This document shows positions 22,987 through 37,757 of a stretch of 37,758 bases of DNA, one piece after another; the first letter of the stretch is position 1, and each line of letters begins with the position of its first letter. The DNA lies in assembly GCA_019058015.1 (NCBI GenBank), contig JAHLWH010000019.1, positions 1 to 37,758 of the forward strand, written 5' to 3'. Origin of the DNA: Promethearchaeota archaeon (GTDB lineage: Archaea > Asgardarchaeota > Lokiarchaeia > Sigyniarchaeales > SOKP01). Under the pieces are notes generated by a model. It searched no databases. It was not told where the DNA came from and worked only from the letters and a program-made list of their open reading frames with translations. The position numbers and the translations under genes are program-made.

Positions 22987-24321
22987 ATGACTCAAAGTAC
23001 AAAAAATCAAGAAAGAATCCAGAGATTTGTGTGTCCTGGATGTTCATTATATTGCGACGATAATCAAGTCATATATTCCGAAAATAATGAAATTATCGAG
23101 ACTTATGGTTTATGCTTAAAGGGTTATAAAAAATTAAATGAAATTAATTCAAAAAATCGCATCAAAAAACCCTTAATTCGCAAGAATGGTGAGTTAAAAG
23201 AAGTATCATTAGATAAGGCACTAAATAAAGTTAAAGAAATTATTAACTCTTCCCAAAAATCCCTCCTATATGGTTTTGTTAATACAACTTGTGAAGCACA
23301 AATAAATGGAATATGGCTTGCCAAGAAAATAAATGGATTCATTGAGTCTAATGCATCAATTTGTCATGGTCAAACTTATTCGAATGCTATCGAGAGTGGA
23401 TTCCATTCTACTACATTAAATGAATGTATTAATAAAGCTGACGTATTTATATTTTGGGGTTCTAACGCTGCAGAGTCCAACCCGAAATTTTTAACAAAAA
23501 CAATTTTTTCAAGAGGTAAATTTAGAATAACGGGAAGAGAAATAAAAACATTAATTTTAGTTGATCCTCGAAAAACCGCGACTTATGGAGTTGCTGGAGT
23601 TCGGGATTTGTATATTCCTTTAAAACCTGGCAAAGATTTGGAGCTAATTCAATTTTTAAAAGATATGATTTTAAAGGAAAAATCCGAAGTACCAGCTGAT
23701 GGTTTTGTTGGTGTTGATAAACAGGATTTAAATCGTCTCATCCTAAATTTGAAAGGTTCAGAAAATGGTGTAATCCTTTTTGGACAAGGAGTAATTAATT
23801 CCAATCCTAATGGAAATGTTATAAAGGCTTTAATTGAATTGGTGGATTTGATTAATGAAACTTCTAAGAGAAGTCGTTTTTCAATTATTCCTATGACCGG
23901 GCATAATATGAATGGTTTTATCCAAGTTTCTTTATCTTTATTGGGAAAAATGGACCAAATAGAATTTTCTGATAACCAACTTATCGAATCAAATAAAGAC
24001 TTAATTTCTAAAATAAAGGATGACGAATTTGACATGTCCATTATCGTTGCTTCGGATCCAATATCTAATTTACCGATAACCCTAAGCTCCAAATTAGCAA
24101 AAAAACCCATAATTGCAATTGATTGCTTTATTACCCCTACAACAAAATTAGCTGATGTTATATTGCCCGTGGCAATTACAGGAATAGAAACTGATGGACT
24201 TGTGTATAGAATGGATAATATTCCTATGAATTTGCAAAAAATAATCGATCCACCAGCTAATCTGCCTTCTGATGAGCAGATTTTGCTGAAAATAATACAA
24301 AAAATGGAGGAAAAAAGATGA
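22987..24321 (+). CDS. Divergent formylmethanofuran dehydrogenase subunit B paralog (FwdB')
   Basis: CPGCSLYCDD FeS motif, ASICHGQT, FWGSNAAESNPK, VDPRKTATYG; aligns to FwdB at 28851-30167; MRGH -> MTGH. Confidence 0.85.
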   Translation: MTQSTKNQERIQRFVCPGCSLYCDDNQVIYSENNEIIETYGLCLKGYKKLNEINSKNRIKKPLIRKNGELKEVSLDKALNKVKEIINSSQKSLLYGFVNTTCEAQINGIWLAKKINGFIESNASICHGQTYSNAIESGFHSTTLNECINKADVFIFWGSNAAESNPKFLTKTIFSRGKFRITGREIKTLILVDPRKTATYGVAGVRDLYIPLKPGKDLELIQFLKDMILKEKSEVPADGFVGVDKQDLNRLILNLKGSENGVILFGQGVINSNPNGNVIKALIELVDLINETSKRSRFSIIPMTGHNMNGFIQVSLSLLGKMDQIEFSDNQLIESNKDLISKIKDDEFDMSIIVASDPISNLPITLSSKLAKKPIIAIDCFITPTTKLADVILPVAITGIETDGLVYRMDNIPMNLQKIIDPPANLPSDEQILLKIIQKMEEKR

Positions 24322-26407: not shown

Positions 26408-26752
26408 TCACTCAAAAAGAAAAGATAGCATCTGTTCTACATCTTGAGGGGATAAATAAGCATATAATTCTTTATTTATTTCAAGATTATGCACAATTTT
26501 TTTATTTGGAAAAAATTTGCTAAAACAAATACAGCAGGGTATTCCAACTATTATTTTTTCATCAAAATTTTTTGATTGCTTCATTAGATTTAACAATTTT
26601 TTCTTAAGATTTATCGAATCGAGATCTTTTTTAAAATAAAAATCCAATAAATGACTTTTCTGAATTTTATTTTTACAAATCGGACATTTTGAATAGAATT
26701 CTAAAAATTCATTAAGTGTTTTTTTTTCATTATCAGTAAGTTTTCGGTTCAT
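26408..26752 (-). CDS. Uncharacterized small protein with putative zinc-ribbon Cys pairs
   Basis: MNRKLTDNEKKTLNEF...CPICKNK...CCICFSKF; start reassigned to 26752, avoiding overlap with the upstream gene. Confidence 0.55.
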   Translation of the reverse strand: MNRKLTDNEKKTLNEFLEFYSKCPICKNKIQKSHLLDFYFKKDLDSINLKKKLLNLMKQSKNFDEKIIVGIPCCICFSKFFPNKKIVHNLEINKELYAYLSPQDVEQMLSFLFE

Positions 26753-26768
26753 CTTAATCAAAAAAAAG

Positions 26769-27875
26769 TTAATGGTGGTGAATAGCATTTTCTATAATAT
26801 AGATTCCTCGTTTTTTGAGTTCTTTTATCATTTTAGTAATATTTAGATCTGGACAACCTTCAGGTGGAAATACACCGGGAGTCATTATCTCTTTCTCAAC
26901 GATCATCTGGCTTGCTATAGAAGCGGGTGTCGAGGTTAATTTTGCTACAGCCCCTACAGTTGCATAAGACAATCTGATATTCTTCTGTTGTTTTTGGCCT
27001 ATTATTTCACTACTGAAAGCAGAAATTATTTCTCTTTTCTCAATCTCACCAGTTAGAAGAGGTAAAATCTTTAGAAAGAATTTACAGATCAGCTTCATAA
27101 TTAAAATATTTTTAATAGGAATGAGCTTATCCATGGTTCGTGTTAATTGCACATTCGACTCAGGGAGTATTCCACCTTTACATACAGCCTCATTTGTATT
27201 GATAAAACGCGGAATAGTTACTGGTTCGGGGTGTCCAACAAAATAAAGCGGAATTAACCCGCAAGGATCTGGGAATTTAATAACTTCGCGTTCTGATAAA
27301 GCTTTTACTTTTAACCATTCTCCATCTCTATAAATAGGAATTTTTCCCATAGCGATATGAGCCCAGTGCATCATTTGTCCAAGACCAATTGTTTCCCCAG
27401 TATCTTCAAACCATAAAACACGCACTGAACTTACCTTATCCAGCTTCTCTGCACCCATTTTTGCCATTATATTCGTTAAACCAGGCGATGCACCGAAATT
27501 TATGAGATAGGTTAATCCTTCCCGCTCCACACTTTTATTCATATTTAGAAGTGTCAATGTCACATCATGGTCATCGCATATATCAGCGTAGTTTATCCCT
27601 GCTTGGAGAGCGGCTCTGGGGATCCAATCACCAAACTCAAAGTATGGCCCAATATTATTGATAACTAGTTTATAATTTTTAAGAACCTCTATCAAAGTAT
27701 CAAAATGCCGAATGTCTAGTCTCTGAAAGGAAGCTCTTTTCCCTAATCGCTTTGCAAGTTGTTCTCCTTCAATTTCCCTTAAGTCAGCTATTGTAACATC
27801 AAAACCGCTTCTAACGAGATCATCTGCAATAAATCTACCAATCTCTCCGCAACCACCCAAAATTATAATATTCAT
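26769..27875 (-). CDS. Saccharopine dehydrogenase-like family protein
   Basis: MNIIILGGCGEIGRFIADDLVRSGFDVTIADL, INNIGPYFEFG, INYADICDDHD, GASPGLTNIMA. Confidence 0.87.
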   Translation of the reverse strand: MNIIILGGCGEIGRFIADDLVRSGFDVTIADLREIEGEQLAKRLGKRASFQRLDIRHFDTLIEVLKNYKLVINNIGPYFEFGDWIPRAALQAGINYADICDDHDVTLTLLNMNKSVEREGLTYLINFGASPGLTNIMAKMGAEKLDKVSSVRVLWFEDTGETIGLGQMMHWAHIAMGKIPIYRDGEWLKVKALSEREVIKFPDPCGLIPLYFVGHPEPVTIPRFINTNEAVCKGGILPESNVQLTRTMDKLIPIKNILIMKLICKFFLKILPLLTGEIEKREIISAFSSEIIGQKQQKNIRLSYATVGAVAKLTSTPASIASQMIVEKEIMTPGVFPPEGCPDLNITKMIKELKKRGIYIIENAIHHH

Positions 27876-28033: not shown

Positions 28034-28858
28034 CTACCTCGCTACATATAATCTTCCTTTAGTTTTTGCACTTGTTGCATGATCTCCACTATATTCAATA
28101 AACTTACCTGAGATCTTTTCACCGTCTGGCAATTCGATTTCTGAAACTTCTCCAATTTTTTTAAAGGATGGCATTATCCTGCCGATTTTTCCTTTCACTA
28201 CGACGAATCCACGCGCTTGATCGGCAGCAACTCGAGCTTCCGCATTACCTTCACAAATAATTATACCTCCGTGATTATGAAGGCCGAAAAACTGACCTGC
28301 AGAACCACAGATTAATTTTGGGAACCTTTTTTTTGGAGTAGAACCTCGAGCCCAAATCATTGATTCATATCCAACACTTCCTTTAACTTTTATCACTCCA
28401 TTTGTCATACCTTCCCAATTCCCTCTATATGCAGCACCTACATAATTCCCCGCATTCCCTGTAATTTCTAATTCGCCTCCTTCCATCATTGCTCCTGCCC
28501 AATCCGCAGCATTACCATTCACTACAATTTTTCCTCCATTCATTGTATTTCCTACGTGCATTCCCACATCTCCATTAATTGTAATTGCCCCACCGGACAT
28601 TTTTTCCCCGATTCTTTTTACTTTTGACAAATTTCCATTTATCACAATTTCAATATCATCTAAATTATTACCAGCCGTGCCTTTAATATCAAAATAATCT
28701 TTAAGTGAAAGTTTTTCATTACCATGAAATATTATTAGATTCGCTATGTCTTTTTGTGTTTTACCTTTGAAGTTATCAGGGGTTATGGATTCTGCTTCAA
28801 GAGAAAAAGTGGGTTCCTTCTTTAAAGTTAATTCAATCTTTCCCATTCTTCTACTCAC
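28034..28858 (-). CDS. fwdC: Formylmethanofuran dehydrogenase subunit C
   Basis: GXGXG repeat domain: INGDVGMHVGNTMNGGKIVVNGNAADWAGAMMEGGELEITGNAGNYVG. Confidence 0.93.
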   Translation of the reverse strand: MSRRMGKIELTLKKEPTFSLEAESITPDNFKGKTQKDIANLIIFHGNEKLSLKDYFDIKGTAGNNLDDIEIVINGNLSKVKRIGEKMSGGAITINGDVGMHVGNTMNGGKIVVNGNAADWAGAMMEGGELEITGNAGNYVGAAYRGNWEGMTNGVIKVKGSVGYESMIWARGSTPKKRFPKLICGSAGQFFGLHNHGGIIICEGNAEARVAADQARGFVVVKGKIGRIMPSFKKIGEVSEIELPDGEKISGKFIEYSGDHATSAKTKGRLYVAR

Positions 28859-30167
28859 CTTTTAACTCCTTTACTTTTTCAATTAATTTTTCTATAATCT
28901 CATAATCTGCCATACAATCTTCGGGAGCATTTTTCACTTTTCTCAATCTAATTGGCACTTTATCCATACGATATGCCGTTCCTTCACATTCAATCCCGGC
29001 AATTGCTGGAGGGAGAATTATATCTGCCATTTCAGAAGTCGGCGTTTTATGGGGCTCAACGGATATTAAAGGTTTTTTTAGCATATTGATTACAGCATCT
29101 TTTGGAAAATTTGAAGCGGGGTCTGAGGCCACAATCAAGGTAACATCAAAATCGTTTCTTTTTAATATATCTACTGCTGAAAACTCACCTGGATTATAGC
29201 GGGGATAATCTCTTGAAAAATCTATGGAATATGGGTAACCAGTTGTCCATGTAAATACAATATTTGCTCCTGAAACATTATAATGACCTCTCATTGGAGT
29301 TAAATTAAATTTAGTATGCTCATTCAATTCCCTGATAAGACTTATTCCTGCATCTACATTTCTATGCTTGCCTTTTGACATAGTTAAGCCAAGACCAAAA
29401 AATAATACACCGAACTTACAAGATTTAAGGATTTCAACAAGCTCTTTAATTTGCTTGATAGGAACTCCTGCTACTTCTTTAACATCTAATTCTACACCAC
29501 GACACATAGCTCTAATAGCATTAAACAATTCATAATCTTCGCCAGGATTTAATCTAATATGCATATCTGCCATTTGGGCGGTATGAGTTGTTCTAGGATC
29601 TACAACAATTATTGTTCGGTCAAGATGGCCATCTACTCTGAAATAACCGCGAATAAAATCACTATATCGACTCATATGCCTTGGATGAGCATGAACTGGA
29701 TTGGAGCCCCAAAATAAAACTAAATCTGCCCGATTTTTATATTCACCCAAAGTACTTGTTGGGCAACCAACATCTTGAATAGCGAGAAGTGAAGGTCCGT
29801 GACAAACAGATGCGGTATTATCAAGAACTCCACCACAAATTTCCATTAATTCAACAGCCTTTCGCTGCGCATCACATTCGGTTGAACTCCATCCATATGA
29901 TAATGGTCTCTTTGCATTTGCTAATAGCTCAGCGGCTTTATTTAATGCTTCATCCCAAGTAACTTTCTCTAATTTGTCATTATTTCTCATCATAGGTTTT
30001 GTATATCTGTGCTCTGACACATTCGATGAGAAAAATTTTGCAGTTCCTATAGCACAAGCATTATCTACTTCAATAATCTTATTATCTTCTAAAATAATTT
30101 TTAAATCATCACAAAGCGTCCCACAGAAAGGACAAACTACATCTTCAAAATTTTTAAATTTTTTCAT
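28851..30167 (-). CDS. fwdB: Formylmethanofuran dehydrogenase subunit B (canonical)
   Basis: VCPFCGTLCDD, TASVCHGPS (metal-ligand Cys + His), FWGSNPVHAHPRH, PMRGHYNVSGAN (catalytic Arg). Confidence 0.95.
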   Translation of the reverse strand: MKKFKNFEDVVCPFCGTLCDDLKIILEDNKIIEVDNACAIGTAKFFSSNVSEHRYTKPMMRNNDKLEKVTWDEALNKAAELLANAKRPLSYGWSSTECDAQRKAVELMEICGGVLDNTASVCHGPSLLAIQDVGCPTSTLGEYKNRADLVLFWGSNPVHAHPRHMSRYSDFIRGYFRVDGHLDRTIIVVDPRTTHTAQMADMHIRLNPGEDYELFNAIRAMCRGVELDVKEVAGVPIKQIKELVEILKSCKFGVLFFGLGLTMSKGKHRNVDAGISLIRELNEHTKFNLTPMRGHYNVSGANIVFTWTTGYPYSIDFSRDYPRYNPGEFSAVDILKRNDFDVTLIVASDPASNFPKDAVINMLKKPLISVEPHKTPTSEMADIILPPAIAGIECEGTAYRMDKVPIRLRKVKNAPEDCMADYEIIEKLIEKVKELKGE

Positions 30168-30182
30168 TTACTTTGCCTCTTT

Positions 30183-30563
30183 CTATTTATAACTTTTAAT
30201 TATTTCTAATGCTGTAAGAATCCTTCCACTTTTTACTACTTCAACCTCTGCTTCCGTTCCTTTGTATGAGGGCATACCGGTGCCATATGTTTCGGAATTA
30301 ATAACAGCATTTGCCCAAGGACCCATTGGAATAAAGATAATGCCAGGATGGGGTCCTTGTTCTGAAATTTGAGAATATACAACCACTTCCCCAAATTTTG
30401 TAGTGACCTTGACAGGTGTTCCAATCATACAATCCAATTTTGCAAAATCGTCTTTATCAAATTCACAAATTGCACAAGCTTTTATATTTTCCCTTCCTAG
30501 CTTTTGACCTTCAAGGGCAACTCCCTGGTCTATGGTTCGACCGGTGGTTAGAAAAAACTTCAT
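30183..30563 (-). CDS. fwdD: Formylmethanofuran dehydrogenase subunit D
   Basis: MKFFLTTGRTIDQG, IGTPVKVTTKFGEVVV, IPMGPWANAVINSETYGTGMPSYKG; start reassigned to 30563. Confidence 0.92.
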   Translation of the reverse strand: MKFFLTTGRTIDQGVALEGQKLGRENIKACAICEFDKDDFAKLDCMIGTPVKVTTKFGEVVVYSQISEQGPHPGIIFIPMGPWANAVINSETYGTGMPSYKGTEAEVEVVKSGRILTALEIIKSYK

Positions 30564-31273
30564 TTTATTCCTTTCCACCCCCTTCTCATTATTTTCAATC
30601 GTTCAACCATATCTGGCCAAAACGGCTCGTTATAATCACCAGAATATTTTACTTCAGTAATTTCAAGCTTTATTGCACCTGTTGGACAAGCATTATCACA
30701 AGTTCCACAATATATGCATTTTTTATCATCAAGCTCAATCTTAGGAGATTTTTCCCAACCAGGTGTTTCTTTTTGTTTTTCTGGAAGCGTTATAGCTCCC
30801 GTGGGGCAAACATCAACGCAAGTAGAACAACCACCTGCACATTCTTCTATAACAATACTGATCTTCCCTTCAACATACTGTTTAGCTTGACGGCCAATTT
30901 TTTCACAATCTTTTAATTCAAATTCTAATTTAGGTAGTGCTTTCTTTTGAACTAATGGTAAATCAATAGATTCTACTTTCTCATCATTATAATAAATTGA
31001 GAGCGCAAAGAATGGGCACATATAGACACAAACTCCACAAAAACTGCATTTATTCGGGTCATATATGTTTGGAACAAGATCTTCAGTAGATAACTTTATT
31101 GTTGCACCTATTGGTCCTCTAGATACAGCTTCCATAGGACAGACTTTGGAACATACTCCGCAACCCACACATTTTGTTTTATCCAAATCAAGCTGAGTAC
31201 TTTCAATCAAATATTTTACTCGAACACTTTCCATTTCTTTTGTTATTGTCCTTGATATTTTTGGAAATGACAT
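30560..31273 (-). CDS. fwdF: FwdF-like polyferredoxin
   Basis: Four 4Fe-4S motifs: CVGCGVCSKVCP, CSFCGVCVYMCP, CAGGCSTCVDVCP, CIYCGTCDNACP. Confidence 0.85.
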   Translation of the reverse strand: MSFPKISRTITKEMESVRVKYLIESTQLDLDKTKCVGCGVCSKVCPMEAVSRGPIGATIKLSTEDLVPNIYDPNKCSFCGVCVYMCPFFALSIYYNDEKVESIDLPLVQKKALPKLEFELKDCEKIGRQAKQYVEGKISIVIEECAGGCSTCVDVCPTGAITLPEKQKETPGWEKSPKIELDDKKCIYCGTCDNACPTGAIKLEITEVKYSGDYNEPFWPDMVERLKIMRRGWKGIK

Positions 31274-31327: not shown

Positions 31328-31594
31328 TTATTTGATTTCTAACATTTGAACTATTTTTATATTAATTGCCTTTTGCGGGCAAATTTCAACACAAACTCCA
31401 CAACCGGTACAATTTATAGTTCTATTCTCCTCATATATTTCATTTGCATAGCCATTTTTAACTAAAATAACTGCGTTTTTATCATTTAAATAACCTTTTT
31501 CTTTTAATTGATCAAAATTTACAGGACATGAAACCACGCAATCGTTGCATCCTGTGCACAAAACCTTATTTACTTCAATTCTATAAACTTTCAT
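31328..31594 (-). CDS. fwdG: FwdG-like 2x[4Fe-4S] ferredoxin subunit
   Basis: CTGCNDCVVSCP and CTGCGVCVEICP; position within the fwd cluster. Confidence 0.8.
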   Translation of the reverse strand: MKVYRIEVNKVLCTGCNDCVVSCPVNFDQLKEKGYLNDKNAVILVKNGYANEIYEENRTINCTGCGVCVEICPQKAINIKIVQMLEIK

Positions 31595-31597
31595 TAT

Positions 31598-32026
31598 CTA
31601 TTCCTCCATTCTTAATGGATTTGGTCCAATTTCTTTTAATTCTTTAACAAATTCCTTTACAATTTCTGTTAATTCTGCACCTTCGCTTGCAGAAACTTGT
31701 GTGTATTTGACCCTTTTTGGATTAACTCCAAATTGTTCAAGCATTTTTATAAATAATGGCATCTTTCGAAATGTTTTAAGATTCCCTTCTACATAATGAC
31801 AATCACCGACATGACAATGACTTACAAGAACACCATCCGCACCATTTTTTAATGCTTGAATTACCATTAGTGGTTCCATCCGCCCCCCACACATAACTCT
31901 TAAAATTCTTAAATTTGCAGGTCTTTGCATACGGCTCGTACCTGCTTGGTCTGCACCAGCATATGTACACCAATTACAGCAAATTCCTAAAATATAAGGG
32001 TCAAAATCTTCTTTCACTTTAGCCAT
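31598..32026 (-). CDS. mvhD: MvhD/FrhD-like hydrogenase iron-sulfur (delta) subunit
   Basis: ILGICCNWCTYAGADQAGTSR, VMCGGRMEP, LVSHCHVGDCHYVEGN; adjacent to hdrA. Confidence 0.92.
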   Translation of the reverse strand: MAKVKEDFDPYILGICCNWCTYAGADQAGTSRMQRPANLRILRVMCGGRMEPLMVIQALKNGADGVLVSHCHVGDCHYVEGNLKTFRKMPLFIKMLEQFGVNPKRVKYTQVSASEGAELTEIVKEFVKELKEIGPNPLRMEE

Positions 32027-32027
32027 T

Positions 32028-34034
32028 TTATTTACTCCCATTTTCTGTTTTTGCTAGTGGTGGAATGGCTGTATTGATCATAGCAAAAATTTGATCATCT
32101 GAAAAGTGATTCTGGACAATAGCATCTGATGGACAAGCCGCAGCGCATGTTCCGCAGCCTTTACAAAGAGCTTTATTGATAACTGCAATATTTTTAAATA
32201 CATCAAAACTTATTGCATTAAATGGACATAAGCTTTGACATGATTTACATCCGCTACATTTATACTCCAGAACTACAGAATAATATGGTTCGATTGCAAA
32301 TTCTCCCATTGCCATTAACGAAGCGGCACCAGAAGCTGCTCCTTTAGCTTGTGCTACAGCATCAGGTATATCCTTGGGTCCTTGAGCTACACCTGCAACA
32401 AATATACCATCTGTTAATGTGTCAACTGGACGAAGTTTCGGATGTGCTTCCATGAAGAACCCATCTGCAGAGCGTTGAATTGTCAATATTGAAGCAATCT
32501 GATCTGCATCATATCGGGCTACTAAACCGCATGATAAAACCAACATATCCAACTTAATTTCTATCTGCTTTTGAAGTAAAGTATCTTCAGCACGAACTAT
32601 AATGCTGTGATCTTCATCCTCATAAACTTCACCTATTCTGCCGCGAATATATTTTATTCCGAAATTTCTTCCAGCGGATTCATAAAATTCTTCATACCCC
32701 TTGCCAAACGCACGAATGTCCATATAAAAAATATAAATAGATGCTTCTGGATGCTTTTCTTTGTACTGTCTTGCTTGTTTGGTTGCATACATACAACAAA
32801 CACGGGAACAGTAATTATTTCCACCAGGGCGGAAGTTTCTACTCCCTACACATTGTAAAAACCCTATACTATGAGGTGGTTCTAAATCTGAAGGCCTTGC
32901 TGGTTTCCCTTCAAGAGGCCCAAACGAACTCAATAACCTTTCCATCTCTAACCCATTAATAACATTCGGATATTTACCGTATCCATACTGTTTTAATTCG
33001 GTAGGATCATATAAATCCCAACCGGTTGCAACAATTATTGTTCCTACTTTAATCTCGACATATTCAAGTTTATCATCAAACCTTATGGCATCCGGCTCAC
33101 AAACTTCCGGAGTTGCACAAATACCGCATTTTATACATTTTGTCATATCAATTGTAAATTCTCCTGGAACTGCTTGCGGGAATGGAATATAAATAGCCTT
33201 TCTTATTCCCAATCCCACCTCAAATTCATTAGCACATATAACAGGACATTCTATAGCGCATAAACCGCAACCCGTACATGCTTCTTGATCAACATAATGA
33301 GGTTTTTTCTTAATGGTTACATCAAAATTTCCTACATATCCATCTACCTTCTCAACTTCGGAATATGTCATAAGATGGATTTTTTCTTCCCTGCCAACAT
33401 CAACCATTCTTGGAGTTAAAATACATGCACTACAATCCATTGTCGGAAAGGTTTTATCTAATTGAGCCATATGCCCCCCTATAGTTGCCGTCCTTTCCAC
33501 CAAATAAACATCATATCCTTCTTTAGCTAAATCAATAGAAGCATTCATCCCAGCAATTCCAGCACCAATCACTAAACAAGCAGGCTCTACTTTTACTCGC
33601 TCAACTTCTAACGGTTTTAATTCACTTAATTTAGCAACAGCCATCCTAACGTGATCTTTAGCAATTTTAAACGCCCCTTCAGGATCATCTAAATTTACCC
33701 ATGTTGCATGCTCACGAATATTTGCCATCTCAAATAGAAATTCATTTACTCCTACCTCTTTAACCACCATTCTAAATGTTGGTTCATGCATTCGAGGACT
33801 ACATGCAGCAACAATCACACGATTTATTAATCCAGCTTCTATATCTTCCTTAATCATCTCTTGCCCTATACTGCTGCATATGAATTTATATTCCTTCGCA
33901 AGAGCAACATTTGGTAAAGTCTTCGCATATTCAGTAAGAGCAGGTACATCTATTACTCCAGCAATATTGATGCCACAATGGCATACGTAAACACCAATCT
34001 TTATTTCTTCATCATTTCTTAATGAATTAGACAT
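32028..34034 (-). CDS. hdrA: Heterodisulfide reductase-type subunit A
   Basis: GVYVCHCGINIAGVIDV, VIGAGIAGMNASIDLA, DKTFPTMDCSACILTPRMV, CTGCGLCAIECP, CSGCKSCQSLCP, CKGCGTCAAACP. Confidence 0.96.
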   Translation of the reverse strand: MSNSLRNDEEIKIGVYVCHCGINIAGVIDVPALTEYAKTLPNVALAKEYKFICSSIGQEMIKEDIEAGLINRVIVAACSPRMHEPTFRMVVKEVGVNEFLFEMANIREHATWVNLDDPEGAFKIAKDHVRMAVAKLSELKPLEVERVKVEPACLVIGAGIAGMNASIDLAKEGYDVYLVERTATIGGHMAQLDKTFPTMDCSACILTPRMVDVGREEKIHLMTYSEVEKVDGYVGNFDVTIKKKPHYVDQEACTGCGLCAIECPVICANEFEVGLGIRKAIYIPFPQAVPGEFTIDMTKCIKCGICATPEVCEPDAIRFDDKLEYVEIKVGTIIVATGWDLYDPTELKQYGYGKYPNVINGLEMERLLSSFGPLEGKPARPSDLEPPHSIGFLQCVGSRNFRPGGNNYCSRVCCMYATKQARQYKEKHPEASIYIFYMDIRAFGKGYEEFYESAGRNFGIKYIRGRIGEVYEDEDHSIIVRAEDTLLQKQIEIKLDMLVLSCGLVARYDADQIASILTIQRSADGFFMEAHPKLRPVDTLTDGIFVAGVAQGPKDIPDAVAQAKGAASGAASLMAMGEFAIEPYYSVVLEYKCSGCKSCQSLCPFNAISFDVFKNIAVINKALCKGCGTCAAACPSDAIVQNHFSDDQIFAMINTAIPPLAKTENGSK

Positions 34035-34049
34035 TTATTTTCCACACCT

Positions 34050-34998
34050 TTATATCATTTGCTCTTTTATTTTTTGTATTAATGGTTGAATTGAAATAAA
34101 TGGGGGAACTCCTTTCAAATCATGACCAGCCACAAGCCCTAAATCTCCCGGGTTCATACCCATTGCTAATCCTAATAATTGATTGTAATAAATAATGGGA
34201 ATTTTATATGACTCGCCTATAATATCTTTAAATTTATCATTTACTTGCATTTGACCAAGATCCATTTGTAAATGACAAAATGGGCAACAAACTATACAAC
34301 AATCCACATTAACTTTTCGCATATTTTCAAGTTTTTCCCTTGTAAAATCAAGAGAAACCTCTAATGATGCTGTTCGGACGGCTCCTCCAGCACCACAGCA
34401 CATAATCTTATCTTTATAATCGATGCTTTTTGCACCCGTTATCTCAACCAATTCATCAAAGAATCTCGGTTCTTCATATTCCCCTCCCCAAGGCCTATTG
34501 GATGAATCTTTAAGAATATGGCAACCATAATGCACGCCAACTCTTAAATCTGGAAACTTAATCTTGATATAATCTTTAAGTTTATCAATACCAAAATCAT
34601 AATATAATACTTCAATTAGATGTTTAACCTCAATTGTTCCTTTGAATTCCCTCCCAATTTTCGCAAGATGTTTATTAACCATATCCCGTTTTTTCTTATC
34701 ATGCTTTAATAGATGATTTACTTCAAGTAGAGTTCCATAGCAACCGTTGCATCCCAGTGTAATATCTGCTTCATTCTCTTCGGCTATTGAAATATTTCGT
34801 GCTCCAATAACGAGCCAAGTTGTGATATCAAAACCCCTAAAAACCCCAGGAGCTGGACAGCAACTCGCACCTTGCATATCTACTAATTCAATTCCCAATT
34901 CTTTAAAGGTATTGCGAATGGATTGTTCAATAAAAGGGTATCTATTGGGAATAACACATCCTAGATATAATGAATATCTTAAGTTTTTTTCAGACATA
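34050..34998 (-). CDS. hdrB: Heterodisulfide reductase-type subunit B
   Basis: SLYLGCVIPNRYPF, GASCCPAPGVF, LGCNGCYG, HYGCH...MCCGAGG...CPFCH (CCG domains); start likely MSEKNLRYS near 34998. Confidence 0.93.
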
Positions 34999-35132
34999 AT
35001 GGTTTTTCTTTCTTTGATTAAATTGGGGTAAAACACATTCTCTGAACTTAAGTAATTAATTATTCAATTTGTATTAAAATTTTAGATTAAAAGATATACA
35101 AAATTGTGGAGGAAAGGTTATATTTTAAAATA

Positions 35133-36383
35133 TTATTTTAGATCATCTTCTTTTTGCATTTTTATGAACTGTATCGGAATAATTGAGCTCAGGGTAAGTA
35201 TTCCTACGACAACAAGTAGAATACCAGTATCTATGAATCCAGAAAGAAAAGTACCTAATGGTCCGAAAATAAGCATAGAAATAATTACCATTAGTGCAAG
35301 CATCTGATATTTATAGCTAAATTTATTTCCTGCAAACTCCATCATTAAAGAAACAAATGCAATATAGGCTATTGCATTTGGAATTAATACAAACATTCCT
35401 AATATGATTAAAGTCCAAAGATCCATCAGTGGAATACACATATCAAATAAACCAACAATAATTATTGAAAAATAAAGAATTTTCTTTCTATTACTATATT
35501 TCAACGCGATATTTATTAAGAGGTATCCAATAATATTAATGAAAGGCGCAAAAATCAGAAAGAACAAAAATATTTCAAAACATTCTTGACCAAACCTTTC
35601 CACTAACCATGGTTCGTAGGGAACTTGCACAAGTGCTTCTGAGAAGAAAAGGAGCAAAAATACACTTATACAAATGAAACTAAGTTTTAAATATGATTGA
35701 TCTAATGTTTTCATACTTTTCTTTTTAGAGATTTCTTGCTTTATACCTTTTTCTTCAAGGCTTTCTTGTCTATTTCCTTCATTAATAGTTTTATTATATA
35801 TAAAATAAGAAAGAATTATTAATGGAAATAGTGTGATTAATTGGAAAGTAAAGAGATTATTCCATTCGTTTATGTTATAAATATTATTAATAATTAAAAT
35901 ATAGGATAAATAAGCTAAAATATTACCCAATGAATTTCCAATTTGTATTAAGACAATTTTCCTTTTTTTCGTTTGAATATTAGGTGAAGTATCGATAATA
36001 TCTCCATCAATTGCAACATCGATTATTGATATGCAGAAATAGTTTATACTCCAAAAAATACCAAAAATAATCATAATTTGAATTGAAATAATCATCAACA
36101 GAAAACTGATAAATAGGCCAATACTACCCAAAAATATGTAAATTTTCCTTTTAGGATGTTGACCAGTTTTTTCAAAGGTTTTATCGGATATTAGTGCGAA
36201 TATCGGTTTAATTAAAAATGCTGAATATGAAATTAACTGAGCAAAAGCAATTTCTAATTCAGGAATTCCCAAAACCGTAATTAGTAGAACAGGTAAAAAA
36301 GTATTGAAAAACACTAAAAGGAGTCCTTGGACTAAATATCCAAAAAGATATGTTAGGCTATTTACTATTTTCATTTTATTCAC
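35133..36383 (-). CDS. MFS-fold transporter (GPH-like or related), within the fwd-hdr cluster
   Basis: ~12 hydrophobic segments; loop ALISDKTFEKTGQHPKRKIYIFLG after TM2 as in MFS/GPH proteins. Confidence 0.7.
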   Translation of the reverse strand: MNKMKIVNSLTYLFGYLVQGLLLVFFNTFLPVLLITVLGIPELEIAFAQLISYSAFLIKPIFALISDKTFEKTGQHPKRKIYIFLGSIGLFISFLLMIISIQIMIIFGIFWSINYFCISIIDVAIDGDIIDTSPNIQTKKRKIVLIQIGNSLGNILAYLSYILIINNIYNINEWNNLFTFQLITLFPLIILSYFIYNKTINEGNRQESLEEKGIKQEISKKKSMKTLDQSYLKLSFICISVFLLLFFSEALVQVPYEPWLVERFGQECFEIFLFFLIFAPFINIIGYLLINIALKYSNRKKILYFSIIIVGLFDMCIPLMDLWTLIILGMFVLIPNAIAYIAFVSLMMEFAGNKFSYKYQMLALMVIISMLIFGPLGTFLSGFIDTGILLVVVGILTLSSIIPIQFIKMQKEDDLK

Positions 36384-36501: not shown

Positions 36502-37062
36502 TTACTTTTTTTCCGCTTTTTCTTCTTTTTTAGCGTATTTTCCCCAAGCAATAGTTTTATCAAAGCCCACACTACTAATTAATTCTTGCACTTCTTTAAC
36601 GTATTTAGGATCCGTATGGACTGTTGGAGGAACTCTGTTTACACCATAGGATTCTCTCATAATGTTCCATTTTTCATCATTAATGGGAACCCCATGACCT
36701 GTATCATAGAACATCCTACATAAATTGAGATGATTTGGCAAAATATACCCTCTTTGAACCGCTAAATTTCTTAAGAATATAATCATATCTGTAATCGGCA
36801 GATTACGCGGACATCTTTCAAAACAAGTATAGCAAGTAGTACAGAGCCAGAGTTCTTTATCTGAGAGAACTTCTTCAAGTCCTAAAATCGCTTTTCTAAT
36901 TATCGAGCGTGTTCTCAATGCAGTCCTTCTTCCGGAGGGACAACCGGCTGTGCAATTACCGCACTGAATGCAAGCACCAATTTCCGCATATCCTGCTTTT
37001 CTAAGTTCATTAGAGATATCATCTTTAATCTCTAAGATTCGATCAGATTTTAAATCTTCCAT
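36502..37062 (-). CDS. hdrC: Heterodisulfide reductase-type subunit C
   Basis: CIQCGNCTAGCPSGRRTALRTRSIIRKAILG, CTTCYTCFERCPRNLPITDMI. Confidence 0.94.
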   Translation of the reverse strand: MEDLKSDRILEIKDDISNELRKAGYAEIGACIQCGNCTAGCPSGRRTALRTRSIIRKAILGLEEVLSDKELWLCTTCYTCFERCPRNLPITDMIIFLRNLAVQRGYILPNHLNLCRMFYDTGHGVPINDEKWNIMRESYGVNRVPPTVHTDPKYVKEVQELISSVGFDKTIAWGKYAKKEEKAEKK

Positions 37063-37073
37063 TTTAATCCTCC

Positions 37074-37757
37074 TTAAGTGAGTGTAGTAATAATTTTTTG
37101 TTTAGGAAGATATGCTTCTTGAACGGGATAATTATTAAAATTAATTGAATAATGGTCTCTCCATTTCTCTTTTATATCTTGTATTACAGATTTCATGAGA
37201 TCATCACTTACACTTGCTTTTGTCCAAATGGTATTACCAAGTGGTGTGGCTACAACCTTTCCATCTATTACAACGATTTTTCCATCTTTTATTGTGTAAG
37301 ATGCATTTGTGAATGCTTTTTCGATTTCAATTCCTTTATGTCGATTATCAGGATTGAATTTATATAGGCAAACATCAGCTTGAGCACCTACTCCAAGATG
37401 ACCTTTCTCCGCAAAACCTAGGCATTTAGCTGTTCCAGAGCGAGTACATTGGGCTAATTCATAAAGTGTTAATTCGGTATCCAAATTTTCTAGTTCTGTA
37501 GCTGAGCTTGCTTTGGGTGATAATTCTTCCTTAAGCAAGATATCTCTGGATTTCTTATCCATAAGCCATTTTATAATTCTTGGATAAAACGTAAAAGGTC
37601 CACCATTGGGGTGGTCGGTCGTCAACAGTACTTGCTCTTTATTTTTCACAGATAACAACAATTCCAATCCAATAGCCCATTGAATTGCATTCACGGCAAC
37701 CTTTGGGCTAAATATATATGGCACAAGTCCGGAGCCGCATTCTGCCTCTACTTGACC
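37074..37757 (-). CDS. fwdA: Formylmethanofuran dehydrogenase subunit A (canonical), truncated by window edge
   Basis: Open to right edge (GQVEAECGSGLVPYIFSPK...); LLTTDHPNGGPFTFYPRIIKWLM catalytic motif; CTRSGTAKCLGFAEKGHLGVGAQADV. Confidence 0.93.
   Translation of the reverse strand, partial: GQVEAECGSGLVPYIFSPKVAVNAIQWAIGLELLLSVKNKEQVLLTTDHPNGGPFTFYPRIIKWLMDKKSRDILLKEELSPKASSATELENLDTELTLYELAQCTRSGTAKCLGFAEKGHLGVGAQADVCLYKFNPDNRHKGIEIEKAFTNASYTIKDGKIVVIDGKVVATPLGNTIWTKASVSDDLMKSVIQDIKEKWRDHYSINFNNYPVQEAYLPKQKIITTLT

Follow-up and report, generated by a model that had tools for sequence, protein, structure and literature searches.

A second FwdB family of Asgard archaea lacks the active-site arginine and may have exchanged formate handling for electron transfer

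Asgard archaea, the relatives of eukaryotes, harbour a family of FwdB paralogues whose active-site arginine appears to have been lost in the family's common ancestor, leaving Thr in the genus described here and Gly, Ala, Ile or Ser in its relatives. On balance, we think that this paralogue, FwdB', serves as B subunit in a second complex, specific to Asgard archaea and descended from formylmethanofuran dehydrogenase (FMD), which would have given up the handling of formate and would work mainly by passing electrons between carriers of ferredoxin type and an Hdr-type module. The main argument is not the Thr alone but the joint absence of three independent formate-handling elements: Arg288 of FwdB, Lys64 of FwdA and the FwdC subunit. 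The paralogue is a variant of FMD and no categorically new system, and no earlier description of the family was found in literature searches that took in few subscription papers.

The window, as we call the whole stretch of DNA analysed, is a complete contig of 37,758 bases from a Lokiarchaeia genome, and it carries two Fwd clusters (Table 1). The second operon, on the plus strand, is ordered FeS protein - FwdB' - FwdD' - FwdA' and is without FwdC; the canonical Hdr-Fwd cluster, on the minus strand, consists of a FwdA fragment, HdrC, HdrB, HdrA, MvhD, a small ferredoxin, FwdF, FwdD, FwdB and FwdC. The Hdr genes of the window are part of this canonical cluster and lie about 5 kb from the FeS-B'-D'-A' operon. 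An MFS transporter gene (35133-36383, minus strand) sits between the HdrB- and HdrC-like genes, and the stretch between the two clusters (26408-27875, minus strand) holds a saccharopine-dehydrogenase-like gene and a small CxxC protein, both kept in L034 and not there in L035.

Table 1. Features of the two Fwd clusters in the window
Feature	Position	Strand	Basis
FeS partner: PF04060 domain + 4Fe-4S ferredoxin, 167 aa	22433..22936	+	Pfam; 55-98% identity to orthologues
FwdB', FwdB paralogue, 444 aa	22987..24321	+	TIGR03129 358 bits; alignments; model vs 5t5i_B
ACC = Thr304, at the active-site Arg position (R288 FwdB / R333 FdhF)	23896..23898	+	alignments
FwdD', molybdopterin dinucleotide-binding domain, 124 aa	24318..24692	+	PF01568; NF042908; alignment
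FwdA', amidohydrolase, 558 aa	24709..26385	+	TIGR03121 302 bits, below cut-off 392.75; alignments
Canonical FwdC	28034..28858	-	TIGR03122 242.7 bits
Canonical FwdB; C, H, R, H all kept	28851..30167	-	TIGR03129 617 bits
Canonical FwdD	30183..30578	-	NF042908 111.5 bits; PF01568
FwdF-like polyferredoxin	30560..31273	-	NF042909 116 bits, best family
Small two-cluster ferredoxin, FwdG-like by position	31328..31594	-	ORF
MvhD/FlpD-like subunit	31598..32041	-	PF02662
HdrA	32028..34034	-	NF040770 873 bits
HdrB-like, CCG domains	34050..35036	-	PF02754
HdrC-like	36502..37062	-	4Fe-4S dicluster domains; position
Canonical FwdA, C-terminal part, cut at contig end; D385 present	37074..37724	-	PF07969; alignment

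By sequence FwdB' belongs to the FwdB family, scoring 358.5 bits on TIGR03129 against a curated cut-off of 327.8; its nearest named relatives are proteins of Lokiarchaeota/Lokiarchaeia MAGs, 89-95% identical over the protein, and the N-terminal 4Fe-4S cysteines are present. The initial annotation had reported a Thr in place of the Arg of the MRGH motif and had equated that Arg with Arg333 of E. coli FdhF. Both statements hold: the ACC codon encodes residue 304, which pairs with R288 of M. wolfei FwdB, as C126 does with C118, both in a phmmer comparison with 5t5i_B and in a MAFFT alignment, and an HMM-HMM alignment to FdhF places T304 and the canonical R288 alike on R333 and C126 on Sec140. The other correspondences are H127 to H119 and H306 to H290 (M. 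wolfei numbering, used from here on), and the peptides quoted for the two window proteins, including ICHGQ and VCHGP, are correct. A structural model of FwdB' built from a 48-row alignment (pLDDT 90, pTM 0.89) superseded a first AlphaFold model from 19 rows, in which the active-site loops fell below pLDDT 50; it matches FwdB structures at Z 46-47 (5t5i_B: Z 46.6, 35% identity), FhcB at Z 32 and chain 8rvu_D of ElpA at Z 29.

Assembly or sequencing error and a pseudogene were considered and ruled out, as the same Thr occurs in four genomes (the window and three of its genus) and dN/dS within the genus is 0.12-0.19 for FwdB'. The corresponding values of 0.15-0.17 for FwdA' and 0.10-0.13 for canonical FwdB likewise indicate purifying selection. 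A change private to the window was ruled out too, Arg being absent across Loki and other Asgard paralogues.

The reach of the paralogue family was gauged in a survey confined to Asgard genomes. A contig scan with the single FwdB' protein returned only three Loki records. Position 288 is Arg in 43/43 canonical FwdBs and in none of 82 paralogues of the final alignment, where the column is less surely placed in the fully degenerate families f2, f4, f18 and f28, whose neighbouring residues have changed too. Paralogues instead carry Gly (48), Ala (9), Phe (7), Thr (6), Ile (4), Ser (3) or others. Within the Loki family (f1) the residue is Gly in nearly all members, Thr in the window's genus and Ser once; Ala is found in f9, f19 and f20, Ile in f26 and f29, and in f7 a related FwdB (L169) combines Ser with an intact Cys-His-His. 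Canonical FwdBs from the same genomes, taken as controls, show C-H-R-H throughout. An Arg at this site in homologues of related genomes, which the annotation had named as the finding that would speak against it, was thus looked for and occurs in no paralogue. Its further statement that the Cys-His pair is retained stands for the Cys, which along with Gly289, His290 and Asn292 is kept in 53/53 Loki FwdB', and fails for the His beyond the window's genus, position 119 being Gln in the other Loki paralogues and once Leu. Cys118 itself is gone in f18, f28, f2 and f4.

A tree computed without the active-site columns separates, by one branch with SH-aLRT 94, 31 Arg-bearing rows (M. wolfei among them) from 43 others; L134, whose sequence looks frame-disturbed, was excluded. 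It implies one change of the Arg and about four of C118. A single origin of the Arg loss is well supported but not final, since the tree was computed quickly, has some long branches and relies on SH-aLRT as its only support measure.

The paralogue is accompanied by a specific [4Fe-4S] protein. This FeS protein, encoded upstream of FwdB', consists in order of a PF04060 domain, a 4Fe-4S ferredoxin and a Cys-rich tail, and is the best conserved subunit of the operon; PF04060 also occurs in RnfB and in the gamma subunit of the corrinoid/iron-sulfur protein. A profile search found its gene in 102/227 Asgard genomes. In two families, second copies of FwdB are confined to genomes that have the FeS gene (18/20 with it vs 0/14 without, p 9e-8; 46/50 vs 0/10, p 1e-8). 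The FeS gene directly adjoins the FwdB paralogue in 19/20 loci fetched from families other than f1, many of which also have HdrA, a polyferredoxin and FwdD beside the pair and sometimes a FwdA-like gene. In the Loki family the four genes FeS-B'-D'-A' stand together wherever the contig permits. The four N-terminal [4Fe-4S] cysteines of FwdB (9, 12, 16 and 35) are present in every complete paralogue, even those without Cys118, and hdrA adjoins the pair in many Asgard families, while the operon of the window is without an hdrA of its own.

Around this pair the gene neighbourhoods vary. In f28 (L135, L136, L137, L145) FeS-FwdB'', its metal-ligand Cys gone, is immediately followed by the genes for a CooC-type ATPase and cdhABCD, that is, a CODH/ACS operon, a setting with which the likeness of the FeS protein to the N-terminal 4Fe-4S domain of the corrinoid/iron-sulfur protein gamma subunit (PDB 4c1n, 2h9a) is in keeping; CooC is also near the pair in f18 and f10. 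In f2 and f4 (L070, L071, L072, L107, L108, L109) the FeS gene and a Cys118-less FwdB'' are without FwdA or FwdD nearby, and in f4 distant HdrB- and HdrC-like genes flank the pair. A DUF2099 gene (PF09872) adjoins it in f26 (L133 10286-11149, L141 9826-10689). In many Loki genera (L036, L044-L048, L117, L119, L123) a NifX-domain protein and two MinD-type ATPases with an inserted ferredoxin are encoded upstream of FeS-B'-D'-A', and in other Loki genera the neighbour is an ATPase of NBP35/NUBPL type.

The formate of canonical FMD travels along an internal cavity, which FwdC stabilises, to the binuclear site of FwdA, where Lys64 is the proposed formate gate and an Asp assists condensation (PMC11656701). 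Elements of this route have changed in the partner subunits of FwdB'. In the window, FwdA' keeps the HxH and Lys178 ligands and has D385 changed to N, K64 to Q and L235 to Y; across Loki FwdA' each of these three substitutions is found in 28/28, with the ligands H57, H59, K178, H231 and H271 likewise in 28/28 and H229 in 27/28. Lys64 is lost in all paralogue FwdA partners examined (Gln in the Loki proteins; Thr, Ile or Gly elsewhere), as against its presence in 8/8 canonical FwdAs, where Asp385 is found in the 7/7 that cover the position; the FwdA partner in f26 keeps D385, and several Asgard lineages have no FwdA gene near the FeS-FwdB pair. The segment of FwdD' that matches YGTGMP of the window's canonical FwdD is shortened or lost. 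FwdC was not found in the FeS-B'-D'-A' operons of the Loki family, and it is possible that the paralogue complex borrows the canonical FwdC.

With Arg288 and Lys64 lost, Asp385 lost as well in Lokiarchaeia and FwdC gone from the operon, the complex would no longer make, channel or condense formate. Electrons would instead pass between the FeS protein and the cluster of FwdB', and from there to or from an Hdr/polyferredoxin module. Its core role is accordingly most likely to connect carriers of ferredoxin type with a bifurcating or redox module of Hdr type through the transfer of electrons, a reading suggested by the [4Fe-4S] site that every lineage keeps in FwdB beside a dedicated double-Fe-S protein, often with HdrA and polyferredoxin genes nearby, and for which ElpA offers an experimental precedent. 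The initial annotation identified the Arg correctly and predicted altered CO2/formate chemistry from its absence; we rate that prediction as less likely than loss of formate handling, given the phylum-wide loss, the FwdA changes and missing FwdC, the later losses of the Cys and the universal [4Fe-4S] site with its Hdr-type neighbours. A broader proposal, which we hold only tentatively, is that of a retired FMD linked to Hdr across the phylum: formate binding would have been lost ancestrally, the tungsten site would have become dispensable and been lost several times, and the Fe-S wiring would have been kept to link an Hdr-type bifurcation module to CODH/ACS or to corrinoid-protein reactivation. 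If so, the paralogue would be a Mo/W-family electron-transfer subunit of an origin independent of NuoG and ElpA.

What counts against an electron wire is the strict retention, in Lokiarchaeia, of C118 and most metal ligands of FwdA', for which a pure wire would have no need; that the window's FeS-B'-D'-A' operon is without an hdrA of its own also counts against it. From the retained ligands it would follow that the pterin and binuclear metal sites of the Loki complex are probably still occupied, and they may run a reaction other than CO2/formate interconversion. Taken to its full extent this becomes a re-specialised Mo/W enzyme, in which Loki FwdB' binds bis-PGD via Cys118 and converts another small substrate, FwdA' binds a second substrate without hydrolysing it, and the Thr of this genus would resemble that of periplasmic nitrate reductase (NapA). 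The invariance of C118, G289, H290 and N292 is as such an enzyme would have it, and the uniform K64Q, L235Y and D385N look like a fixed new specificity. There is also precedent for the residue itself: Arg587 of R. capsulatus FDH, the equivalent Arg, is the proposed binding site of azide, CO2 and formate, nitrate reductase has Thr at that position (PMC10385643, PMC9804402), and in our alignment NapA has T-G-Q where FdhF has R-G-Q; FDH acquired the activity of a nitrate reductase through the changes H387M/R587T together with an additional Arg (PMC10385643). Yet Thr is limited to one genus whose relatives have Gly, the Met of NapA is absent, and other families have lost C118 and still keep the FeS partner, so that chemistry at the metal is not a function shared by the whole family; we regard a re-specialised enzyme as unlikely. 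That the complex is still a CO2/formate FMD, with the role of the Arg taken by another residue such as R206 in a three-residue insertion, strikes us as improbable. The TIGR03129 score, a modelled fold identical to that of FwdB, and the presence of R206 in 53/53 Loki paralogues, where nearly all canonical FwdBs have Ala, speak for it, but R206 is not conserved in other paralogues, an Arg-bearing canonical FwdB is encoded alongside, and K64 and D385 of FwdA have changed too.

Two scaffold roles fare worse. FwdB' might merely hold an amidohydrolase FwdA' that deformylates a carrier, after the precedent of FhcB (PMC10100899, PMC11656701), and the loss of C118 in some Asgard lineages and the retained D385 of f26 would suit such a role; with Asn for the catalytic Asp in every Loki FwdA', L235 lost, no FwdA gene near the pair in several lineages, and C118 and the 4Fe-4S site kept in FwdB' where FhcB keeps neither, we find it very improbable. 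The ATPases and NifX-domain proteins encoded nearby, MinD-type with inserted ferredoxin in many Loki genera, NBP35/NUBPL-type in others and CooC in f28, f18 and f10, would lend themselves to a scaffold for the assembly of metal cofactors or Fe-S clusters in the manner of NifEN; but such genes are absent beside the operon in the window's genus and the kind of ATPase varies by lineage, and it is to this reading that we give the least credence.

Asgard FwdB homologues are commonly taken as a sign of CO2 reduction via the archaeal Wood-Ljungdahl pathway, and because the Arg-less second family passes the standard annotation cut-off, counts of FwdB overstate the capacity for it. Should the paralogue prove to be an Hdr-linked electron module near CODH/ACS, it would matter for how energy metabolism is understood in the archaea from which eukaryotes descend. 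The natural series of intact, Arg-less and Cys-less forms is useful, too, for the debated role of the Arg in CO2/formate catalysis.

Among characterised systems, M. wolfei FwdB (PDB 5T5I) shares with FwdB' its fold, the four N-terminal Fe-S cysteines, Cys118, His290 and partners FwdD and FwdA, together with His119 in this genus; FwdB' differs in having no Arg288, a FwdA partner without K64 and D385, an operon without FwdC, and a dedicated FeS protein. Of the features of a catalytic FMD, FwdB' thus retains the Cys and both His, whereas Arg288, the Asp385 and Lys64 of FwdA and an operon-encoded FwdC are missing. Periplasmic nitrate reductase NapA has in common with it the Cys ligand and, in the window's genus alone, Thr at the FDH Arg position, but is periplasmic and only distant kin, and has Met for the His that FwdB' keeps. 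FhcB from methylotrophic bacteria (PDB 6S6Y) contains no pterin and has been described as a scaffold (PMC10100899); like FwdB', it descends from FwdB and has a degraded active site, but it has lost the pterin site and FwdD, whereas the Loki paralogue retains Cys118 (C126 in the window), FwdD' and the 4Fe-4S cysteines. In the Elp-Hdr complex (PDB 8RVU), ElpA is a paralogue of FdhA that has no pterin and feeds electrons into Hdr (PMC12350162). It too is a Mo/W-family subunit removed from formate chemistry and linked to Hdr, but descends from FdhA, has no MopB domain and pairs with ElpB/ElpC, whereas the present subunit descends from FwdB, has the FeS partner and often keeps the metal ligand; in the window both this Cys and FwdD' are retained, and C118 is lost in other Asgard lineages. 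As FhcB and ElpA show, Mo/W-family subunits repeatedly leave catalysis yet stay in redox complexes.
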